Assembly (NCBI GenBank): GCA_028291345.1
Contig: JAQGIF010000379.1
Span: 1 to 48,543 of the forward strand
DNA length: 48,543 nt
Reading direction: 5' to 3'
DNA from: Rhodospirillales bacterium
GTDB taxonomy: Bacteria > Pseudomonadota > Alphaproteobacteria > BOG-932 > Roseiterribacteraceae
Both the position numbers and the translations under genes were made by a program. The notes beneath the pieces are model-generated. The model worked only from the letters and a program-made list of their open reading frames with translations, was not told where the DNA came from and did not search any database. Shown here piece by piece: positions 33,608 to 41,664 of this stretch (position 1 is its first letter; each line of letters opens with the position of its first letter).

Positions 33608-35923
33608 TTATTTTTCCTTCATCTGCCAGACGCCGATCCAGTCATCTGCCGGTGGATGCTCGATCATATATTTGCAACGGTCGATATAGGTCTGTGACAG
33701 GCGGTCCTTGGGGTGGCGCTCAAGGGCTTCCTGGAAATTCTCGATCGCTCGGCCGAATTCCCGTTTGCGGTAGATCCTGATGCCTTCGTTGAAATAGTTC
33801 ACCACGTCCATCAGATTCGGGAAGGTCTCGTCCGTATGGTAGTCGAGAACTTCATAGACGCCGACCGGCTCGGTCTTGCCCTTGACGATGACCATGTCGA
33901 TATCACGGACCCGATAGGTTCCGCGCAGCCTTTTATAGGTATTTTCGCTGATCAGGATACGCGCCGAATAGGCCTTGCAGGCGCTCTCCAGGCGTGAGGC
34001 CAGATTCACGCCGTCGCCGATCAGCGTGTAATCCATGCGCCGAGCCGAGCCGATATTGCCCGATACGACCATATCGGTGTTCAGCCCGATCCCCATATCC
34101 ACCGGTACAAATCCCTTGGCCACGCGCTCGGCGCTGTATTTCCAGCATTCGCGGATCATCGCGATCGACGCGCGAACAGCGCGATCTTCATCGTCGTCAT
34201 GCGGCATCGGCAGGCCGAACGCCGCCATGATCGCATCGCCGATGAACTTGTCGAGCATCCCCTCTTCTTTTGAGATCGCCTCGACCATGATCGTGAAGTA
34301 TTCGTTCAGGAACGACACCGTGCCTTGGGCGCCCAGCTGCTCGGTAATCGGCGTGAAGCCGCGAATGTCCGAGAACATGACAGTCGCGCGGGTGTTCTGG
34401 CCGCCCAGCATCCCGCCATCGTCGTTTTCCAGCATCCGTGCTGCGATCGTCGGGTCCATATAGCGGGACATCGTGGCCTTGACCCGCTTTTCCGTGCTGA
34501 TGTCTTCGATCATCAGCATGGTGCCCAACTGCTCGGCGTGGTCGGTCTTCAGCGGCAGGACGGAGAAATTGACCGTCGCCGTCGTCCCGCCGACGTCGAG
34601 CGCGACGTCCATCTGAATGTCGGAAGTCTTTTGCGTCTCGACCTTGGCGATCCGCTCCACGATCCATTCATTCTTGCCGACGAAGAAATCCGAGGCCTTC
34701 TTGCCGATGATGTCGGCGGCCTTGCACTGGAATATCTTCAGCCCGGCTTCGTTGCAGGTGACGACGACCCGGGATTCGGACAGCGTGACCACACCGTTCG
34801 ACATGCTGAGCAGCATGCTTTCGTTGTAGTTCTTCATCTTCTGGACGTCGTCGAACAGCTTCGCATTTTCGAGCGCAATCGCGACCTGGGCGGTAAAGGC
34901 TTTCAGCCGGGATTCGTCGTCTTCCGAGAACGGACCGCCCTTTTTGTTCAGCGCTTGGGTCACGCCGATCACCTTGCCGTATTTGTTCACGACCGGCGTG
35001 CAGAGGATCGAGCGGGTGAAGAACCCGGTCGTCTTGTCGAAGCCCGGATTGAACCGCAGATCGGCATAGGCGTGCGGGATATTGACGGTCTTGTTGGTGG
35101 TAAAGACGGTGCCGGCGATGCCGGCGTGGCTGGGCAACCGGATCTCGCCGACCTTCGATCCCTGCGCGACACGGGAAAACAGCGTGTCGGTCTTCTCGTC
35201 GTGCAGGAACAGGGTCGACCGTTCCGCATCCAGCATGCGGGTGGCTTCCGCCATGACCCGGGCCAGCAGCGAGTCGAGTTCCAGTTCCGAGGTAATGTCG
35301 GCGACGACGCTCAGGAATTCCATCTCTTGGGCGCGCACCTTGCGCATGCGTTCGACGAACTGCGAGCTGCGCAGCGCCGGTACAGCCATCTGCGCGATGT
35401 CGCTTAGCAGCGATGCGTCCTTTTCGGTAAACGCGCCGCTATGCTTGTTGAGACACTGGGCAACGCCGATCACCTCGTCCTTCACGGTCCGGATGGGGAC
35501 GCACAGGATGGTTTTCGTGGTGTAGCCGGTCTCCTTGTCGACATCGGCATTGAACCTAGGATCCGAATAGGCGTCATCGACGATCATCGGCTCGCGCGAT
35601 TGGAACACGGCGCCGCCGACGCCCTCACTGCTCGAGAAACGAATCTCCCGACGATGGATGCCCTGGGCACTGCGGGAAAATAACTCGTCGGTGTTCGGGT
35701 CGAATAGAAAGAAGCTGCTGCGATCCGCGCCGATCGCACGCGATGTCGTCTCGACCAGTGCGTCGAGGATTTCGTCCAGTGATTCGGTTCCCGATACGCG
35801 GCGCGATACGTTCAGCAGAATATCGAAATGGCGCAGTTGGCTCTGGAGATCTGCAATTTTCGGACGCTTGCCGTGTAATCGCAGATCGATCCCGCCGTGA
35901 TGTCCCAGATCACCGTCCGCCAT
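33608..35923 (-). CDS. GAF-GAF-PAS adenylate/guanylate cyclase
   Basis: This 771-residue soluble class III nucleotide cyclase is built as GAF (about 30-180: LLNVSRRVSGTESLDEIL, VGGAVFQSREPMIVDDAYSD), GAF (about 205-355: SLLARVMAEATRMLDAERST, AGIAGTVFTTNKTVNIPHAY), PAS-like (about 365-470: MSNGVVTLSESRVVVTCNE) and a C-terminal cyclase domain (about 500-690). Metal-binding aspartates are in ATVMFSDIRGFTPITEQLG and DKFIGDAIMAAFGLP. DKF carries the purine-specifying Lys, and MDYTLIGDGVNLASRLES provides Asp, Asn and Arg of the active site. These favour cAMP production. A charged tail region (KTEPVGVYEVLDYH onwards) follows. The start overlaps the upstream coiled-coil gene by 14 bases, so the two are made together. 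GAF domains may bind cyclic nucleotides and give feedback. Confidence 0.9.
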   Translation of the reverse strand: MADGDLGHHGGIDLRLHGKRPKIADLQSQLRHFDILLNVSRRVSGTESLDEILDALVETTSRAIGADRSSFFLFDPNTDELFSRSAQGIHRREIRFSSSEGVGGAVFQSREPMIVDDAYSDPRFNADVDKETGYTTKTILCVPIRTVKDEVIGVAQCLNKHSGAFTEKDASLLSDIAQMAVPALRSSQFVERMRKVRAQEMEFLSVVADITSELELDSLLARVMAEATRMLDAERSTLFLHDEKTDTLFSRVAQGSKVGEIRLPSHAGIAGTVFTTNKTVNIPHAYADLRFNPGFDKTTGFFTRSILCTPVVNKYGKVIGVTQALNKKGGPFSEDDESRLKAFTAQVAIALENAKLFDDVQKMKNYNESMLLSMSNGVVTLSESRVVVTCNEAGLKIFQCKAADIIGKKASDFFVGKNEWIVERIAKVETQKTSDIQMDVALDVGGTTATVNFSVLPLKTDHAEQLGTMLMIEDISTEKRVKATMSRYMDPTIAARMLENDDGGMLGGQNTRATVMFSDIRGFTPITEQLGAQGTVSFLNEYFTIMVEAISKEEGMLDKFIGDAIMAAFGLPMPHDDDEDRAVRASIAMIRECWKYSAERVAKGFVPVDMGIGLNTDMVVSGNIGSARRMDYTLIGDGVNLASRLESACKAYSARILISENTYKRLRGTYRVRDIDMVIVKGKTEPVGVYEVLDYHTDETFPNLMDVVNYFNEGIRIYRKREFGRAIENFQEALERHPKDRLSQTYIDRCKYMIEHPPADDWIGVWQMKEK

Positions 35924-36500
35924 TTTTCTCCAACTCCAGTCTCAGTACCGCTATCGTCTTTTGCAACTCCGCGAATTCGGCGCGCCGGGCGCGTTCGAGG
36001 CTCTGGAGCTCCGCCTCATGCTTGATCTTCATGCCGTCGGCGTCGTTTCGCAGCAGTTGGACCACTGTGCGCAGCTGCGAAACTTCGTCATTCGCCGATG
36101 ATAGGATCTTCTGGCGTTCTTCCTGATGGCCGTTCCGAAGCTCGTCATTGACGGCGCGCATTGATTGGATCGTTTCGCGCAATTGCTTGACCTCCTCACG
36201 CGACGCCGCGATCACGGCGGTGGCTTCGCGTTCGGCTTCGATCGCCGCCAGTTCGATCGCGCCGCGCATCGACTGGATCATGCTTCTAAGCTGCAGCATT
36301 TCTGCCTCGTAGGATGACCGAACTTCCTGGTTGCTGTGCTTAAGCTCGAGGCTCGCCAATTCGAGCTCTTCGCGTAGTGCATAGACGGCGGCGCGAAGCT
36401 GCCGAACTTCTGTCTCAAGTTCCGCCCGCTTGGCGTCTGCAAAATCGACAACGGTCTCCACTTCGACTACTGCCTCCAGTTGCATCGCGCGGGCGGACAA
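35910..36500 (-). CDS. Coiled-coil protein of five 36-residue repeats
   Basis: This 196-residue, highly charged helical protein has no signal peptide or membrane helix. From residue 31 to 187 it consists of five units of exactly 36 residues. Their heads align: EVRQLRAAVYALR (31-43), EMLQLRSMIQSMR (67-79), EVKQLRETIQSMR (103-115), EVSQLRTVVQLLR (139-151) and EFAELQKTIAVLR (175-187). The remainder of each unit is Glu/Ala/Lys-rich. Thirty-six residues equals two hendecads plus two heptads, which suggests a coiled coil with a mixed and strictly periodic register. The gene lies 12 bases after the MBL-hydrolase gene and overlaps the start of the GAF-PAS cyclase gene. A role as a scaffold or spacer linking these enzymes is inferred. 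I do not recognise a named family. Confidence 0.8.
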   Translation of the reverse strand: MSARAMQLEAVVEVETVVDFADAKRAELETEVRQLRAAVYALREELELASLELKHSNQEVRSSYEAEMLQLRSMIQSMRGAIELAAIEAEREATAVIAASREEVKQLRETIQSMRAVNDELRNGHQEERQKILSSANDEVSQLRTVVQLLRNDADGMKIKHEAELQSLERARRAEFAELQKTIAVLRLELEKNGGR

Positions 36501-36512
36501 TTGTCCACCAAA

Positions 36513-37331
36513 TTACAGCGATATAACCATTCCCTCATGCGCGATAACTGCATTTGCATTTACTTTTTCAAGCTCGGCCGCAATCCCGTCCAGCGTATCG
36601 TCTGTATGGCTCGGATCATGATGGAAAAGCACAAGTTTTTTCACCGACGCCTGTTTGGCAAGCTTCGCTGCTTCCTGCCAGGTCGAATGCCCCCAGCCGG
36701 CATGCACTACATACTCCGCTTCTGTGTAAGTCGCATCATAGATCATGACATCCACGCCTTCGATCAGGCGGAGCACGTTGGCGTCAAGCTCGTCGGGCCG
36801 ATGTTCGGTATCGGTGATGTAGGCCACCGACCTTCCTTCCCATTCCACCCGGTATCCCGTTGCCCCGCCGGGGTGATTAAGCGGCGCGGTGCGTACAGTG
36901 ATGCCTTCTCTGGGCGAGAATGTGTTGCCGGCCTCAAAATCCTTGAACTCCAGATGCGCCGAGATCACGTCCACCAGATTCGGCAGATAGGGCTCCGACA
37001 GCGAGGTCGTCAGTACGTCGTGAATGCGCATCCCTGGCGGAAGATGGCCGGCCCAGAAACGCAGGCTGTTCGCCGGGCTGAAACAGGGCGCAAAGAAGGC
37101 GATTCCGCATATATGATCGAAATGCGTGTGGCTGCAGAGGATTTCGGCATGGACTGGTTTCTTCTCGGCGAACAGCGCGCCTCCCAGCCCTCTCAAACCC
37201 GTGCCGGCGTCGAAAATCAGCAGGTCTTCGCCGCAACGCAGCTCGACGCAGGACGTGTTGCCGCCATATCGTACGGTGTTAGGTCCGGGGCAGGGAATGC
37301 TGCCCCGCACGCCCCAAAAGCGGACTTGCAT
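36513..37331 (-). CDS. MBL-fold metallo-hydrolase (phosphodiesterase-like)
   Basis: This protein of about 272 residues opens with MQVRFWGVRGSIPCPGPNTV and RYGGNTSCVELR, followed by LLIFDAGTGLRGLG, the standard entrance of PhnP-like/COG1235 hydrolases. The metal-binding motif is CSHTHFDHICG; further ligands are probably the His in APLNHPGGATGY, the Asp in YITDTEHR, and the final His in LVLFHHDPSHTDD. HAGWGHSTWQEAAKLA is another conserved helix entry. Relatives include RNase Z-like and cyclic-nucleotide phosphodiesterases. With cyclase genes on both sides, degradation of cAMP is a reasonable guess but is not shown. It is the first gene of a three-gene operon with the coiled-coil protein and the GAF-PAS cyclase. 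A TTG 18 bases upstream is an alternative start. Confidence 0.85.
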   Translation of the reverse strand: MQVRFWGVRGSIPCPGPNTVRYGGNTSCVELRCGEDLLIFDAGTGLRGLGGALFAEKKPVHAEILCSHTHFDHICGIAFFAPCFSPANSLRFWAGHLPPGMRIHDVLTTSLSEPYLPNLVDVISAHLEFKDFEAGNTFSPREGITVRTAPLNHPGGATGYRVEWEGRSVAYITDTEHRPDELDANVLRLIEGVDVMIYDATYTEAEYVVHAGWGHSTWQEAAKLAKQASVKKLVLFHHDPSHTDDTLDGIAAELEKVNANAVIAHEGMVISL

Positions 37332-37498
37332 TTTATCCGGTTCAACCAAGCTGCAATCCTCATGCGTAGGTCAGTCCATGTTATGTTATAACGCGGACTG
37401 CTGATGAACGGCTTATGCAATTCGCCAAAATACCTTTTACGATGTCTAATATAAAGCGGATCAAGCGCGTGAATTGTCCGTGAAAGGCGCCGGCTTCA

Positions 37499-37807
37499 CT
37501 ATGCGTTGGCCTCGGCACGCAATTTAGCTCGGATACGGTCAATACCCCGCAGCGCTTCCTTATTTCCCGGCTCCGTCGCCAGGGCGCGTTCGTAAGCCGG
37601 CAAGGCCCATTTCAACTTGCCGATTTTTTCGGCTTCCTCCGCATATTGCAAATTGAGCACCAAGCTTTGCGGCTGTTGCTGGAGCCGCTGATAGATATCG
37701 GACAGCGCGTCAGCTTGAAGTGTGCCGAGCGGCGGCAGGGTCAACACCGTGCAGCAGGCCACGCGCCGCAACCAGAGTCGTCCTAGTGCTGTAGTTCTTG
37801 ATAGCAT
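37499..37807 (-). CDS. Small exported TPR-like protein
   Basis: This 102-residue protein has a signal sequence (LWLRRVACCTVLTLPPLGTL-QA) and roughly two TPR-like helical hairpins: LSDIYQRLQQQPQSLVLNLQ-YAEEAEKIG and KLKWALPAYERALATEPGNK, followed by EALRGIDRIRAKLRAEANA. The pattern of A-x-x-x-Y-x-x-A-L-x-x-x-P-x-N is clear. It is short for an exported TPR protein. It could be complete, or it could be the surviving front of a longer repeat protein, but I see no matching sequence after the stop. It is divergent from the FecR gene across about 105 bp and upstream of the MBL hydrolase by 168 bp. A periplasmic adaptor role is inferred only. Confidence 0.7.
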   Translation of the reverse strand: MLSRTTALGRLWLRRVACCTVLTLPPLGTLQADALSDIYQRLQQQPQSLVLNLQYAEEAEKIGKLKWALPAYERALATEPGNKEALRGIDRIRAKLRAEANA

Positions 37808-37913
37808 GGATTTTAGTCCATTTTTATGACCGACTTTCGCAATAGTATCAATTTTGTTTGCGACGGGCTATTTACCACATTAACTTGTGTAGTCTGGCTT
37901 TTTCCCGGAGTCA

Positions 37914-39047
37914 TTGATGAACGCTTCACGGCGTCTGTTGTCCTCGGTCAGTGCGATAACCATCGCCTGGCTCAATACACTGGCCTCGCCCATTGTCCTA
38001 GCCGATGTGGCTAAGGCCGGCACCGCCTCGACCGTGAAGGGGACCTCTGTGACCGGCGTCCTCGGTGCGGATTCGAGTGTTATCGTGGTCGGCAAGGACA
38101 TATTTGCAGACGAGTTTGTGAATACCGACACTACGAGCTCGACCGAACTTATGTTCCTGGATCAGACCAATTTGACGATCACGCCCGGATCGTCAGTGAA
38201 GATCGATAAGTTCGTCTTCGATCCGAACGGCAAGAAGGGCACGGTCGTTTTCAATGTGGCGCGCGGCTCGCTGCGCTTCGTCACCGGATCCCAGGATCCG
38301 ACCAGCTATCAGATCAAGACGCCCGTCGCGACGATCGGCGTTCGCGGCACGATCGTGAATTTTATAACGACCGACGGCGGCTTGGCTGTACAGCTCGAGG
38401 ATGGGACCGCCGGCGTGATCGGGACGAACGGCGTCCTTACGCCGATGAGTCCCGCGACGCAGCTTGCTGTGTTCGGCGTGACCGGCTCGGTGGCCACCGC
38501 CGCCAACGGCGGTCTCGCCGCCGCGGTCGGTGCCTTGCTCGTCGGCTCCGCCAACCCGGCTACCACGGCGGCCTCGCTGCTTGTGGTCGCCGGTAACAGC
38601 ACCGGCGCGTTGGCCGCTGTCGCCGCGGCTGCCGTTGCGAGCGCGGTGTCCGCCGCGGGCATCTCTCCGGCCGCCTTGACGGCCGCCGTCGCAGCCGCGG
38701 TCACGACGTCATCGAACCCGGCCGCCGCCGCCGCATCGGTGGTCAGTAGTTCCGCGACGCTGTCGCCCAGCCTGGCGTCTTCCACGGGTGCCGGCCTTGC
38801 GACGGCGGCAACATCTCTGGCGGCCAGTGACCCGACAGCTGCGGCCGCAATCGTAACTGTCGCCTCAACCTCGACGAATGCCGCAATCTCGGATCCGGTC
38901 GCCGCGGTTGCGCAGGCCGTCGCGAATACGCCCCCGGCAGCACCGCCCCCTCCGCCTCCGCCTCCTCCGCCGCCGCCGCCTCCTCCTCCTCCGCCTCCTC
39001 CGCCTCCTCCGCCGGTGGTGCCACCGCCGCAAAACAGCCCGCACTGA
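37914..39047 (+). CDS. FecR-domain protein with polyproline C-terminus
   Basis: This 377-residue exported protein has a signal peptide (VSAITIAWLNTLASPIVLA) and a FecR domain at about 35-170: VIVVGKDIFADEFVNTDTTS, STELMFLDQTNLTITPGSSV, KIDKFVFDP, NVARGSLRFVTG and TPVATIGVRGTIVNF. This is the periplasmic sensing fold of FecR, without the N-terminal anti-sigma part. Residues about 180-335 are Ala/Ser/Thr-rich and of low complexity. After TPPAA comes a run of 24 prolines (38943-39014), then VVPPPQNSPH. Poly-Pro of this length needs EF-P for translation and makes a stiff extension. The CHASE2 cyclase gene follows 135 bp downstream, a pairing seen in other Proteobacteria, so this protein may supply the periplasmic input to the cyclase. 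Confidence 0.85.
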   Translation: MMNASRRLLSSVSAITIAWLNTLASPIVLADVAKAGTASTVKGTSVTGVLGADSSVIVVGKDIFADEFVNTDTTSSTELMFLDQTNLTITPGSSVKIDKFVFDPNGKKGTVVFNVARGSLRFVTGSQDPTSYQIKTPVATIGVRGTIVNFITTDGGLAVQLEDGTAGVIGTNGVLTPMSPATQLAVFGVTGSVATAANGGLAAAVGALLVGSANPATTAASLLVVAGNSTGALAAVAAAAVASAVSAAGISPAALTAAVAAAVTTSSNPAAAAASVVSSSATLSPSLASSTGAGLATAATSLAASDPTAAAAIVTVASTSTNAAISDPVAAVAQAVANTPPAAPPPPPPPPPPPPPPPPPPPPPPPPVVPPPQNSPH

Positions 39048-39182
39048 TCGGTGGACGAAAGCCTATTCACAATTGATGCGGCGAATGCCAAAAGTTTGCT
39101 GATAAATACAAATACTCACCAACTATAAAACGCGCGGCCTATGCGCCGCAGGACCTAAGGGAATGCAGATGTTGTTTGCTGG

Positions 39183-41423
39183 ATGGATGCAGTGAATTTC
39201 GTTCGCCGTGGGCGCAAGCTGCTCTATCCCCTTTTCGTGCTGGGTATAGTTGCCCTATTCGTCGTCATCGGCATGGCCAACCCGTTCTTCGTCCAATCGG
39301 TCAGGCTGCTGACGTTCGACAGCATGCAAAAGCTGGCGCCGCGCGCTTATGACGAGCGGCAGCCCGTGCGTGTCGTCGATATCGATGACAAGTCGCTTGA
39401 GGTGCTGGGCCAGTGGCCCTGGCCGCGGACCGTCATGGCCGAATTGATCGGCAAGATCGGCGCCGCGGGCGCGGCATCGATCACCACCGATATTATCTAT
39501 GCCGAGCCTGACCGCACGTCGCTCGGCCGCTACACGAAGAACCTGCCGGCCGATAAAGCCGATGAGGTGGCAAAGCTCGTCGGCGGCCCGCTCGACAACG
39601 ACGCCGTCTTTGCCGACACGATCAGCAAGCTGCCGGTGGTGCTCGGTACCGTCCTGATCGATGACGGCAGCCCGAAGGTCCCGACGCAGAAATCCGGCTT
39701 CGCCGTCGCCGGCGACGATCCGCGGCCCTTCCTGCATGGCTTCACGGGTGTGCTGCCGAATCTGCCGGCGCTCGATACTGCGGCCTCGGGTATCGGCGCG
39801 ACCAACTGGATTCCGGACCATGACGGCATCATCCGCCGCGTGCCGCTGATGTTCCGCGCGGGCGACAAATATGTTCCCTCGCTAGCCGCCGAAGCGCTAC
39901 GCGTTGCGCAGGGTGCCGGTTCCTTTGTGCTAAAGGCGTCGAACGCCAGCGGCGAGACAGCCTACGGCGCGAAGACCGGCCTCAATCACATCAAAATCGG
40001 CGCGATCGAGGCGCCGACCGATGCCGATGGCGGCATCTGGCCGCGCTTCCGGCATTTCGATGCGCGCAGCTATATCCCCGCCTGGAAGGTCATGTCAGGA
40101 GATATCGCGCCTGATGCGCTCAACGGCGATCTCGTACTGCTCGGCATCAGCGCGCCGGGCCTCAAGGACGTCCGGGCGACGCCGCTCGATTCCACCGTTC
40201 CGGGTGTCGAGCTTCACGTTCAGATGCTGGAGCAGTTGCTGACCGGTGTGCGGCTGACCCGCCCGGATTACGCGCCGCCGCTGGAGCTGGTCTTTACGAT
40301 CGTGGCCAGCCTGCTGATCGCGGTGCTGCTGCCGCGTGTGCGGGCAAGCTATTCGTCGGCGCTGGCCGTCGTGATCGTCGCCGGAATCTTCGGTTACGCC
40401 TGGTACGCCTTCACCAAGCAGAGCCTGCTGTTCGATCCGGTCAACCCGTCGCTCGCGGTGACGGTCATGTTCTTCGCCTGCACGGCCTGGACCTACCGCC
40501 AGACGCAAAATCAGAAAGGTGAGATCCGCAAGGCTTTCGGTCAGTATCTGTCGCCGGATGTAGTTCAGCAGCTCATTGCCAATCCGGAAAAGCTCGCGCT
40601 GGGCGGCGAGGAGCGCCCACTGACGATCATGTTTTGCGACGTGCGGAACTTCACGTCGCTCTCCGAGTCTCTTGACGCGCAGGGGCTGACCCATTTTATC
40701 AATACGCTGCTGACGCCGCTGACCGGCGCGATCCTCGAGCGGCGCGGCACCGTCGACAAATATATGGGCGACGCCATCATGGCGTTCTGGAACGCCCCCT
40801 TGCCGCTCGACGGGCATGCCCGCAACGCGGTCGAGGCGGCCATTGCGATGGCCAATTCGATGCCCGACTTCAACGTGCGATGGAAGGCCGAGATGGAGGC
40901 CGCGGGCCGGGTCTATAAGGAGGTCAAGATCGGGATCGGCCTCAATACCGGTGTGGCTTGCGTCGGCAATCTGGGATCGGATCAGCGCTTCGATTATTCC
41001 GTGATCGGCGACGAGGTGAATATCGCGTCGCGCTTCGAAGGTTTGACCAAGCAATATGGCATGACTCTCGCCATTGGCGAGCGGACTGCGGAGGAGGTCT
41101 CCGGTTCAGGCTTGGGGACGCTGGAAATCGACCTCGTTCGGGTCAAGGGCCGTGTTACGCCCTCGCGTCTCTTCACCCTGACGGAAACGCTGAATGTTCC
41201 CGAAGGCCGCACGCCGGAGCTTATGGAAATGCATGCCGCCTTCATCACCGCCTATCGCAGCCAGCAATGGGACGAGGCGATCGCGCTCAAGGTCAAGCTG
41301 ACCGCGATCGGCGTTCCCGGCCTCGAAAAGCTGTATGAGATCTACACACACCGTATCGAGGACTACCTCGCCAACCCGCCGGGCGCGGATTGGGACGGCG
41401 CGTATACCGCAACTGAGAAATAA
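39183..41423 (+). CDS. CHASE2-domain adenylate cyclase
   Basis: This 746-residue inner-membrane class III cyclase has a first membrane helix at about 15-36 (LLYPLFVLGIVALFVVIGMA) and a periplasmic CHASE2 sensor at about 45-360 (VRVVDIDDKSLEVLGQWPWP-RT, TDIIYAEPDR, GATNWIPDHDGIIRRVPLMF, LVLLGISAPGLKDVRATPLD and VPGVELHVQMLEQLL). Three more helices lie at about 370-440. The cytoplasmic cyclase domain is at about 470-640. Metal aspartates are in LTIMFCDVRNFTSLSESLD and DKYMGDAIMAFWNAPLP; Lys of DKYMGD and FDYSVIGDEVNIASRFEG give adenine specificity and the Asn/Arg pair. All catalytic residues are present, so cAMP synthesis controlled by a periplasmic signal is expected. It is downstream of the FecR-domain gene and convergent with dodecin. 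Confidence 0.92.
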   Translation: MDAVNFVRRGRKLLYPLFVLGIVALFVVIGMANPFFVQSVRLLTFDSMQKLAPRAYDERQPVRVVDIDDKSLEVLGQWPWPRTVMAELIGKIGAAGAASITTDIIYAEPDRTSLGRYTKNLPADKADEVAKLVGGPLDNDAVFADTISKLPVVLGTVLIDDGSPKVPTQKSGFAVAGDDPRPFLHGFTGVLPNLPALDTAASGIGATNWIPDHDGIIRRVPLMFRAGDKYVPSLAAEALRVAQGAGSFVLKASNASGETAYGAKTGLNHIKIGAIEAPTDADGGIWPRFRHFDARSYIPAWKVMSGDIAPDALNGDLVLLGISAPGLKDVRATPLDSTVPGVELHVQMLEQLLTGVRLTRPDYAPPLELVFTIVASLLIAVLLPRVRASYSSALAVVIVAGIFGYAWYAFTKQSLLFDPVNPSLAVTVMFFACTAWTYRQTQNQKGEIRKAFGQYLSPDVVQQLIANPEKLALGGEERPLTIMFCDVRNFTSLSESLDAQGLTHFINTLLTPLTGAILERRGTVDKYMGDAIMAFWNAPLPLDGHARNAVEAAIAMANSMPDFNVRWKAEMEAAGRVYKEVKIGIGLNTGVACVGNLGSDQRFDYSVIGDEVNIASRFEGLTKQYGMTLAIGERTAEEVSGSGLGTLEIDLVRVKGRVTPSRLFTLTETLNVPEGRTPELMEMHAAFITAYRSQQWDEAIALKVKLTAIGVPGLEKLYEIYTHRIEDYLANPPGADWDGAYTATEK

Positions 41424-41439: not shown

Positions 41440-41664
41440 TTACTCGAGCGTGAAGCCGACCTTCAGCGTCACCTGATAGTGCCCGATCTGGCCATTTTCG
41501 ATATGTCCCCGCGTCTGAATCGCCTCGAACCAGCGCAGATGCTTGAGGGTTTTCGAGGCGCGGCTGATCGCACTCTTGATCGCGTCGTCGACTGACGTCT
41601 CCGATGTTCCGACCAGTTCGATGACTTTATAGACATGGTCGGAATCGCTTCCTGTCGATGCCAA
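41440..41664 (-). CDS. Dodecin (flavin-binding small protein)
   Basis: This 74-residue protein matches dodecin over its length: [65 protein letters not shown]. Dodecins form hollow twelve-subunit spheres that store riboflavin or FMN/FAD and buffer free flavin. The Trp in LRWFE, which stacks on the isoalloxazine ring, and the Gln of QVTLKVGF are present. It is a single gene, convergent with the CHASE2 cyclase with 16 bases between stops. No link to the cyclase is evident. Confidence 0.93.

Follow-up and report, generated by a model that had tools for sequence, protein, structure and literature searches.

Does a cluster of six genes that sets two class III cyclases beside an MBL-fold hydrolase and several candidate envelope proteins encode one signaling system, or does it hold separate modules that happen to be neighbors? 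The question arises in a 48,543-nucleotide stretch of DNA from a Rhodospirillales bacterium (contig JAQGIF010000379.1 of assembly GCA_028291345.1; hereafter the window). The initial annotation of this DNA, made from the sequence alone, proposed that FecR and TPR proteins sense the envelope, that a CHASE2 cyclase converts the signal to cAMP, that the GAF domains of a second cyclase read or amplify it, that the MBL enzyme removes it, and that a coiled coil assembles the cytosolic arm. The six open reading frames stand exactly where that annotation placed them (Table 1), and Pfam confirms the GAF-GAF-PAS-cyclase, MBL, FecR, and CHASE2-cyclase domains on which the proposal was built.

Table 1. Genes and intergenic region of the cyclase island, in window coordinates.
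Feature	Position	Strand	Basis of assignment
GAF-GAF-PAS class III adenylate cyclase (GAF cyclase), 771 aa, cytosolic	33608..35923	-	Pfam GAF+GAF+PAS+Guanylate_cyc
Coil, 36-residue-repeat helical (coiled-coil) protein	35910..36500	-	Repeat period; conserved partner of the GAF cyclase
MBL-fold hydrolase, 278 aa, predicted metal-dependent phosphodiesterase	36513..37349	-	Pfam Lactamase_B_2
Small TPR-like protein, 102 aa, apparent N-terminal signal sequence	37499..37807	-	Weak TPR match
Divergent TPR-FecR intergenic region, putative control region	37808..37913		>30 bp identical in sister species
FecR-domain protein	37914..39047	+	Pfam FecR E 4e-12
CHASE2 membrane class III adenylate cyclase (CHASE2 cyclase), 746 aa	39183..41423	+	Pfam CHASE2 E 1.5e-55, Guanylate_cyc E 3.7e-17

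The minus strand reads TPR, MBL, coil, and GAF cyclase, the plus strand FecR and CHASE2 cyclase, and the two diverge from a 106-bp region. By spacing, MBL, coil, and GAF cyclase fit a single operon (a 12-bp gap followed by a 14-bp overlap). Given that the gap between the TPR and MBL genes (149 bp in the window, 149-200 bp overall) is poorly conserved, these two are perhaps not co-transcribed; 135 bp separate FecR from the CHASE2 cyclase. All six genes recur in identical order in the sister genome G001, the only same-genus relative found carrying the locus, where the MBL protein is 80% identical. Since the order is kept there and two of the three class III cyclase domains of the window genome fall within the island, the co-location is more than chance. 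In the divergent region the stretch shared with the sister (about 37844-37876, by comparison with L008) contains a 24-mer that occurs only once in the genome and is thus not a regulon-wide motif; a simple pattern scan of 33 to 42 kb for CRP/Clr-like palindromes returned no site. As the comparisons below make clear, the island is a joining of three separately recurring modules, namely coil plus GAF cyclase, FecR plus CHASE2 cyclase, and MBL.

The GAF cyclase has the Pfam domain order of CyaB1 and CyaB2 (tandem GAF, PAS, class III cyclase), and the best structure match of its GAF tandem is CyaB2 (1ykd, E 2e-38). The NKFDE motif of GAF-B is complete in the window protein (N326, K327, F332, D336, E337); across 98 sequences its N, F, and D are invariant, E is present in 96, and all have K or R. 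Catalytic residues D519, K559, D563, T633, N640, and R644, to which the general class III scheme assigns the roles of two metal-binding Asp, substrate Lys and Thr, and transition-state Asn and Arg, are kept in about 97 of the 98 homologues, and the catalytic motifs are present in the CHASE2 cyclase as well. Both cyclases carry complete adenylyl-cyclase residue sets, and the suggestion that a GAF domain reads cAMP looks well founded through the predicted cAMP-binding motif of GAF-B. In Anabaena, CyaB1 is described as a self-activating cAMP switch, and the GAF domains of CyaB2 mediate activation by cAMP (PMC4411481). The likeness to these enzymes (PMC4411481, 1ykd) covers the GAF-GAF-(PAS)-class III cyclase order, the GAF-B NKFDE motif, and the ATP-type catalytic residues; the window-type cyclase differs in a GAF-A whose motif is missing its last Glu, in a coil gene that nearly always precedes it, and in a mainly proteobacterial distribution.

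Full-length relatives of the GAF cyclase (53-72% identity) were found in many families by a class-wide search, and 24 of 299 phylum-wide genomes have the protein. A named genome collection yielded at least 575 candidate stretches matching it, from which the best 80 loci were taken; among the matches listed, the labels comprise Alpha-, Beta-, and Gammaproteobacteria, Thermodesulfobacteriota, Nitrospirota, Verrucomicrobiota, and Planctomycetota, some of the loci being MAG bins whose taxon labels may be wrong. This breadth bears on one reading of the island, an anti-phage cyclic-nucleotide defense of the Pycsar type. Both catalytic domains do match the PADLOC PycC models, but the match is limited to the generic catalytic domain, the effector models match none of the six proteins, and the GAF cyclase is widely conserved together with its sensory domains, all of which makes a defense role very improbable. 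The locus was not classed as Pycsar, having cyclase-domain matches only and no effector among its six products.

The coil gene is a near-constant neighbor of the GAF cyclase. It lies directly upstream on the same strand at 89 of 98 loci, in which genes were delimited by codon-model calling (longest-ORF calling gave shadow ORFs at high GC), and a separate sample drawn across the phylum has it directly upstream at 20 of 22 loci; in the loci searched, every coil match lay within 1.5 kb of a GAF cyclase. The protein matches no Pfam family. Its self-identity at a lag of 36 residues is 24% in the window (maximum 18% in 200 shuffles), and the 91 homologues average 0.37 at lag 36, 0.32 at lag 72, and no more than 0.13 at other lags, with Arg and Gln-Leu positions recurring every 36 residues in proteins of roughly 106 to more than 540 aa. 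Because 36 residues correspond to ten turns of a straight alpha-helix, the coil would be a non-supercoiled rod. Other neighbors of the pair are housekeeping genes, for example PGK, DNA polymerase IV, or petABC/SspA. The open-access literature, an incomplete source and weak evidence of novelty, offered nothing relevant on a GAF cyclase with a coiled-coil partner; coil and GAF cyclase thus appear to form a widespread pair, present in several phyla and apparently undescribed.

The envelope arm is another matter. The assertion that no such system had been described is wrong for the FecR/TPR/CHASE2-cyclase/phosphodiesterase arm, a cluster already published: in Campylobacterota, the majority of CHASE2 adenylate cyclases are encoded together with a cAMP phosphodiesterase, a FecR-domain protein, and a TPR protein (PMC9239204). 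The likeness covers the CHASE2 cyclase and the exported FecR protein, with the TPR-like protein and the MBL enzyme as candidate counterparts of the TPR protein and of the product annotated as a cAMP phosphodiesterase, although the TPR-like protein of the window is small and the genes there occupy two strands, and the text of PMC9239204 neither names the phosphodiesterase fold nor mentions a GAF cyclase or the coil. Further parallels are partial. The BiofilmReg operon (PMC5192318) also places a FecR-domain periplasmic protein (LysM-FecR) beside a CHASE2 sensor, but its output is a histidine kinase where the window has a cyclase. In magnetotactic bacteria, the gene after mtxA, itself a TPR gene, encodes a CHASE2 cyclase (PMC4439547). 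In Sinorhizobium meliloti, CyaD1/CyaD2/CyaK with NsrA and Clr (PMC13001267) resemble the window in that an envelope protein feeds a CHASE2 cyclase on its periplasmic side and a CRP-family regulator provides the output; NsrA, however, is an outer-membrane beta-barrel rather than a FecR or TPR protein, and the text consulted names no GAF cyclase or MBL gene.

Within the window, the FecR protein has an N-terminal hydrophobic/signal segment (residues 12-30) and a Pro-rich C-terminus, and the CHASE2 cyclase has hydrophobic segments near residues 13-43 and 365-411, an adjacent FecR gene, and the MBL gene within 2 kb. The 102-aa protein matches no Pfam family and owes its TPR-like label to a weak match (34% over 56 aa, E 0.001) with a TPR protein beside the FecR and CHASE2-cyclase genes of G108; it is also encoded in the sister genome L008. 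G108 itself carries MotA, MotB, MBL, TPR protein, FecR, and CHASE2 cyclase in a row on one strand. Across 190 genomes sampled from the class, 19 CHASE2-FecR gene pairs from 15 genomes lie within 3 kb, many of whose CHASE2 proteins are not orthologous to that of the window, against 0.36 pairs expected from gene counts and genome sizes; the neighborhood therefore recurs far above chance. Near the orthologous CHASE2 cyclases, single-sequence FecR queries detected nothing, and for 8 of the 22 a 20-sequence profile revealed a FecR gene no farther than about 5 kb away. Two observations stand apart. Very large FecR-domain ORFs of about 1,000 to more than 2,600 aa, some near cyclases, occur at L082:9633-12680, G170:C1:521001, G125:C14:30327, and G108:C12:313647, and might be secreted adhesin-like proteins. 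At 41440-41664 on the minus strand of the window, a small ORF that is dodecin-like by sequence appearance only faces the end of the CHASE2 cyclase gene in convergent orientation.

The MBL protein has the PF12706 fold with a [T/S]HXHXDH-type metal motif, as SHTHFDH, and its invariant residues are H74, H76, D78, H79, H159, D180, and H243. Structural matches to its AlphaFold model (pLDDT 93) include RNase Z (Z=29.6), YhfI (27.9), MBL proteins of Brucella that carry bound AMP or GMP (24-25), PhnP (24.2), yeast PDE1 (21.0), and Apyc1 (20). YhfI has been grouped with the atypical class-II phosphodiesterases (PMC9293780), and with those enzymes (Rv1339, YhfI, Corynebacterium glutamicum CpdA) the window protein has in common the PF12706 fold, a THxHxDH-type motif, and the metal ligands, together with a structure close to YhfI; it is, however, about 22% identical to YhfI, far under the cutoff of the cyclic nucleotide-degrading model NF041851 (58.6 bits, cutoff 400), and equally close to RNase Z, and it was not assigned to that group. 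From motif and model the protein is likely a phosphodiesterase, for which a cyclic-nucleotide substrate is plausible. RNase Z and phosphodiesterases match equally well; RNase Z identity was not accepted, and the GPMC system was likewise set aside (NF038230 and NF038231 score 30.4 and 26.2 against cutoffs of 1200 and 360).

Genomic context is informative here. MBL matches were found in 90 of the 190 genomes of the class, and a class III cyclase is present in the fetched flanks of 18 of 58 MBL loci, nearly always downstream on the same strand. By our own estimate, which assumes about 15-20 cyclases per genome, chance would give roughly 2-3 of 58, and the MBL-cyclase association thus recurs far above chance. 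The adjacent cyclases are mostly a membrane cyclase of about 455 aa, with a Cache-domain cyclase (G017) and CHASE2 cyclases (G152, G108) besides; in G152 the MBL gene comes directly after the CHASE2 cyclase. It is nevertheless quite conceivable, if short of an even prospect, that the protein is some other phosphodiesterase or a nuclease-like regulator, akin to RNase Z or PhnP, that keeps company with varied kinds of signaling genes. Its best sequence matches are to RNase Z, its NF041851 score is low, and homologues adjoin response regulators and MotA/MotB genes, with paralogues next to PP2C/STAS genes, including those of CHASE2-SpoIIE phosphatases, rather than cyclases. What such a regulator leaves unaccounted for is the recurrent, mostly co-directional placement by three different cyclase architectures and a fold close to YhfI, Apyc1, and PDE1.

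Several MBL loci merit mention in their own right. In Alphaproteobacteria (L175, L177, L180, L185, L194, L196, L207, and others) an MBL gene is followed by the membrane class III cyclase of about 455 aa, and an OmpR-type response regulator is often encoded immediately ahead of the unit. Paralogues of about 320 aa adjoin CHASE2 genes (L191:6006-10228, L192, G085:C9, G083:C89); in L191 the neighboring CHASE2 protein bears a phosphatase domain of the SpoIIE (PP2C) kind, and genes for FecR and OmpA are close by. The window genome also has such a paralogue, on C323, with a STAS-like neighbor. These paralogue loci are a parallel, non-cyclase version of the envelope theme. A scan of viral contigs gave no MBL match.

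Whether the two cyclases belong together is addressed by their linkage elsewhere. Outside the genus, among the matches listed, about 20 Rhodospirillales-like loci have the two genes convergent, the CHASE2 cyclase lying downstream of the GAF cyclase at a distance of 7 bp to 7.3 kb; in the window and its sister the two genes are divergent. Linked loci are scattered through a deep alphaproteobacterial clade of the GAF cyclase tree (22 linked and 12 unlinked among 34 assessable rows), the Betaproteobacteria rows are unlinked, and of the rows nearest the window, L064 is unlinked and L065 linked. Most of these linked loci were drawn from a list selected for resemblance to the window cyclase, and in an evenly drawn class sample linkage occurs in only two genomes of one family. 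Further, the CHASE2 cyclase of the window is not specifically closest to the CHASE2 cyclases linked to a GAF cyclase. No FecR gene was found near the 20 linked loci outside the genus, and the full six-gene set is consequently genus-specific in the data searched. The open-access literature held no description of a repeated pairing of two cyclases or of the coil as a near-constant GAF cyclase neighbor. The envelope arm and the GAF cyclase are thus of kinds already known, and what is apparently new is the adjacency of coil and GAF cyclase and the repeated cyclase pairing.

Starting from the observed domains, catalytic and cAMP-motif residues, gene order, and recurrence of each linkage, the island is most readily interpreted as a cAMP relay triggered from the envelope, amplified by positive feedback, and reset by hydrolysis, its three modules each being conserved separately. 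This is the likeliest of the readings considered, and we give it slightly less than an even chance. An envelope signal would reach the CHASE2 domain in the periplasm by way of the exported FecR and TPR-like proteins, whereupon the membrane cyclase, if active as predicted, would make cAMP. As the presumed shared messenger, cAMP would bind GAF-B of the second cyclase and switch it on, amplifying the signal as in Anabaena CyaB1/CyaB2, with the coil perhaps scaffolding or gating that enzyme. The co-transcribed MBL protein would hydrolyze the cyclic nucleotide and so reset the circuit, and output would run through CRP-like receptors encoded elsewhere; the cNMP-binding domain has 10 matches in the window genome. 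Should this reading be correct, the locus would provide a natural cAMP relay in which the product of one cyclase directly switches on a second, with the reset enzyme encoded alongside, and positive feedback in bacterial cAMP signaling would become testable. A partner would also be assigned to a large and so far unpaired group of tandem-GAF cyclases, and the coil proteins, with a constant 36-residue period and no Pfam entry, would represent a novel kind of scaffold associated with cyclases.

The main rival to the relay is that two independent cAMP modules lie side by side, the coil and GAF cyclase (with MBL) serving a cytosolic signal and the FecR-CHASE2 cyclase arm being of the published kind, with only a cAMP pool in common. 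Independent occurrence of the two arms in relatives had been named at the outset as the finding that would count against a joint system, and it was found in part. The coil-GAF cyclase pair stands alone, among housekeeping neighbors, in Betaproteobacteria, in other phyla, and in many further genomes; another genus of the window's family (G003, G004) has a CHASE2 cyclase only, its GAF cyclase matches being confined to the cyclase domain of other proteins; and in G063, the nearest GAF cyclase relative, the two cyclases are on different contigs. The arms are, on the other hand, linked at the 20 or so loci described above, and independence fits poorly with an adjacency repeated in different orientations across a deep clade, or with the near-invariant GAF-B motif, given which cAMP made by the neighboring enzyme should reach the GAF cyclase. 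Mere juxtaposition retains an appreciable probability that we place well below even.

Within the relay, a bolder proposal can be made for the pair itself, one we regard as rather unlikely and offer only tentatively. Coil and GAF cyclase would form an undescribed two-gene cAMP switch, the length-variable straight-helix coil acting as dedicated regulator or scaffold of a cyclase that cAMP activates in its own turn; Rhodospirillales-like bacteria would have wired this switch to a CHASE2 envelope sensor as a two-stage cAMP relay, to which the genus of the window added FecR, TPR, and the MBL hydrolase.

The surroundings of linked cyclases elsewhere add a few minor observations. In marine Rhodospirillales MAGs (L072, L074, L092, L095, L117, L138), the region downstream of the CHASE2 cyclase holds, in full or in part, a type I secretion ABC transporter, HlyD, MotA-like and MotB-like genes, and sometimes MBL, and a TolC-like gene lies near the GAF cyclase in L053, L054, L083, L091, and L093; a link of the cyclases to adhesin secretion or motility is possible. 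At L095:5517-5933, between the two cyclases, a 138-aa protein with a cNMP-binding domain is encoded, possibly a direct cAMP receptor. In L046 (18535-19764) and L065 (10077-11276), the CHASE2 cyclase gene is immediately preceded, on its own strand, by a gene for a GAF and HD-domain phosphohydrolase.
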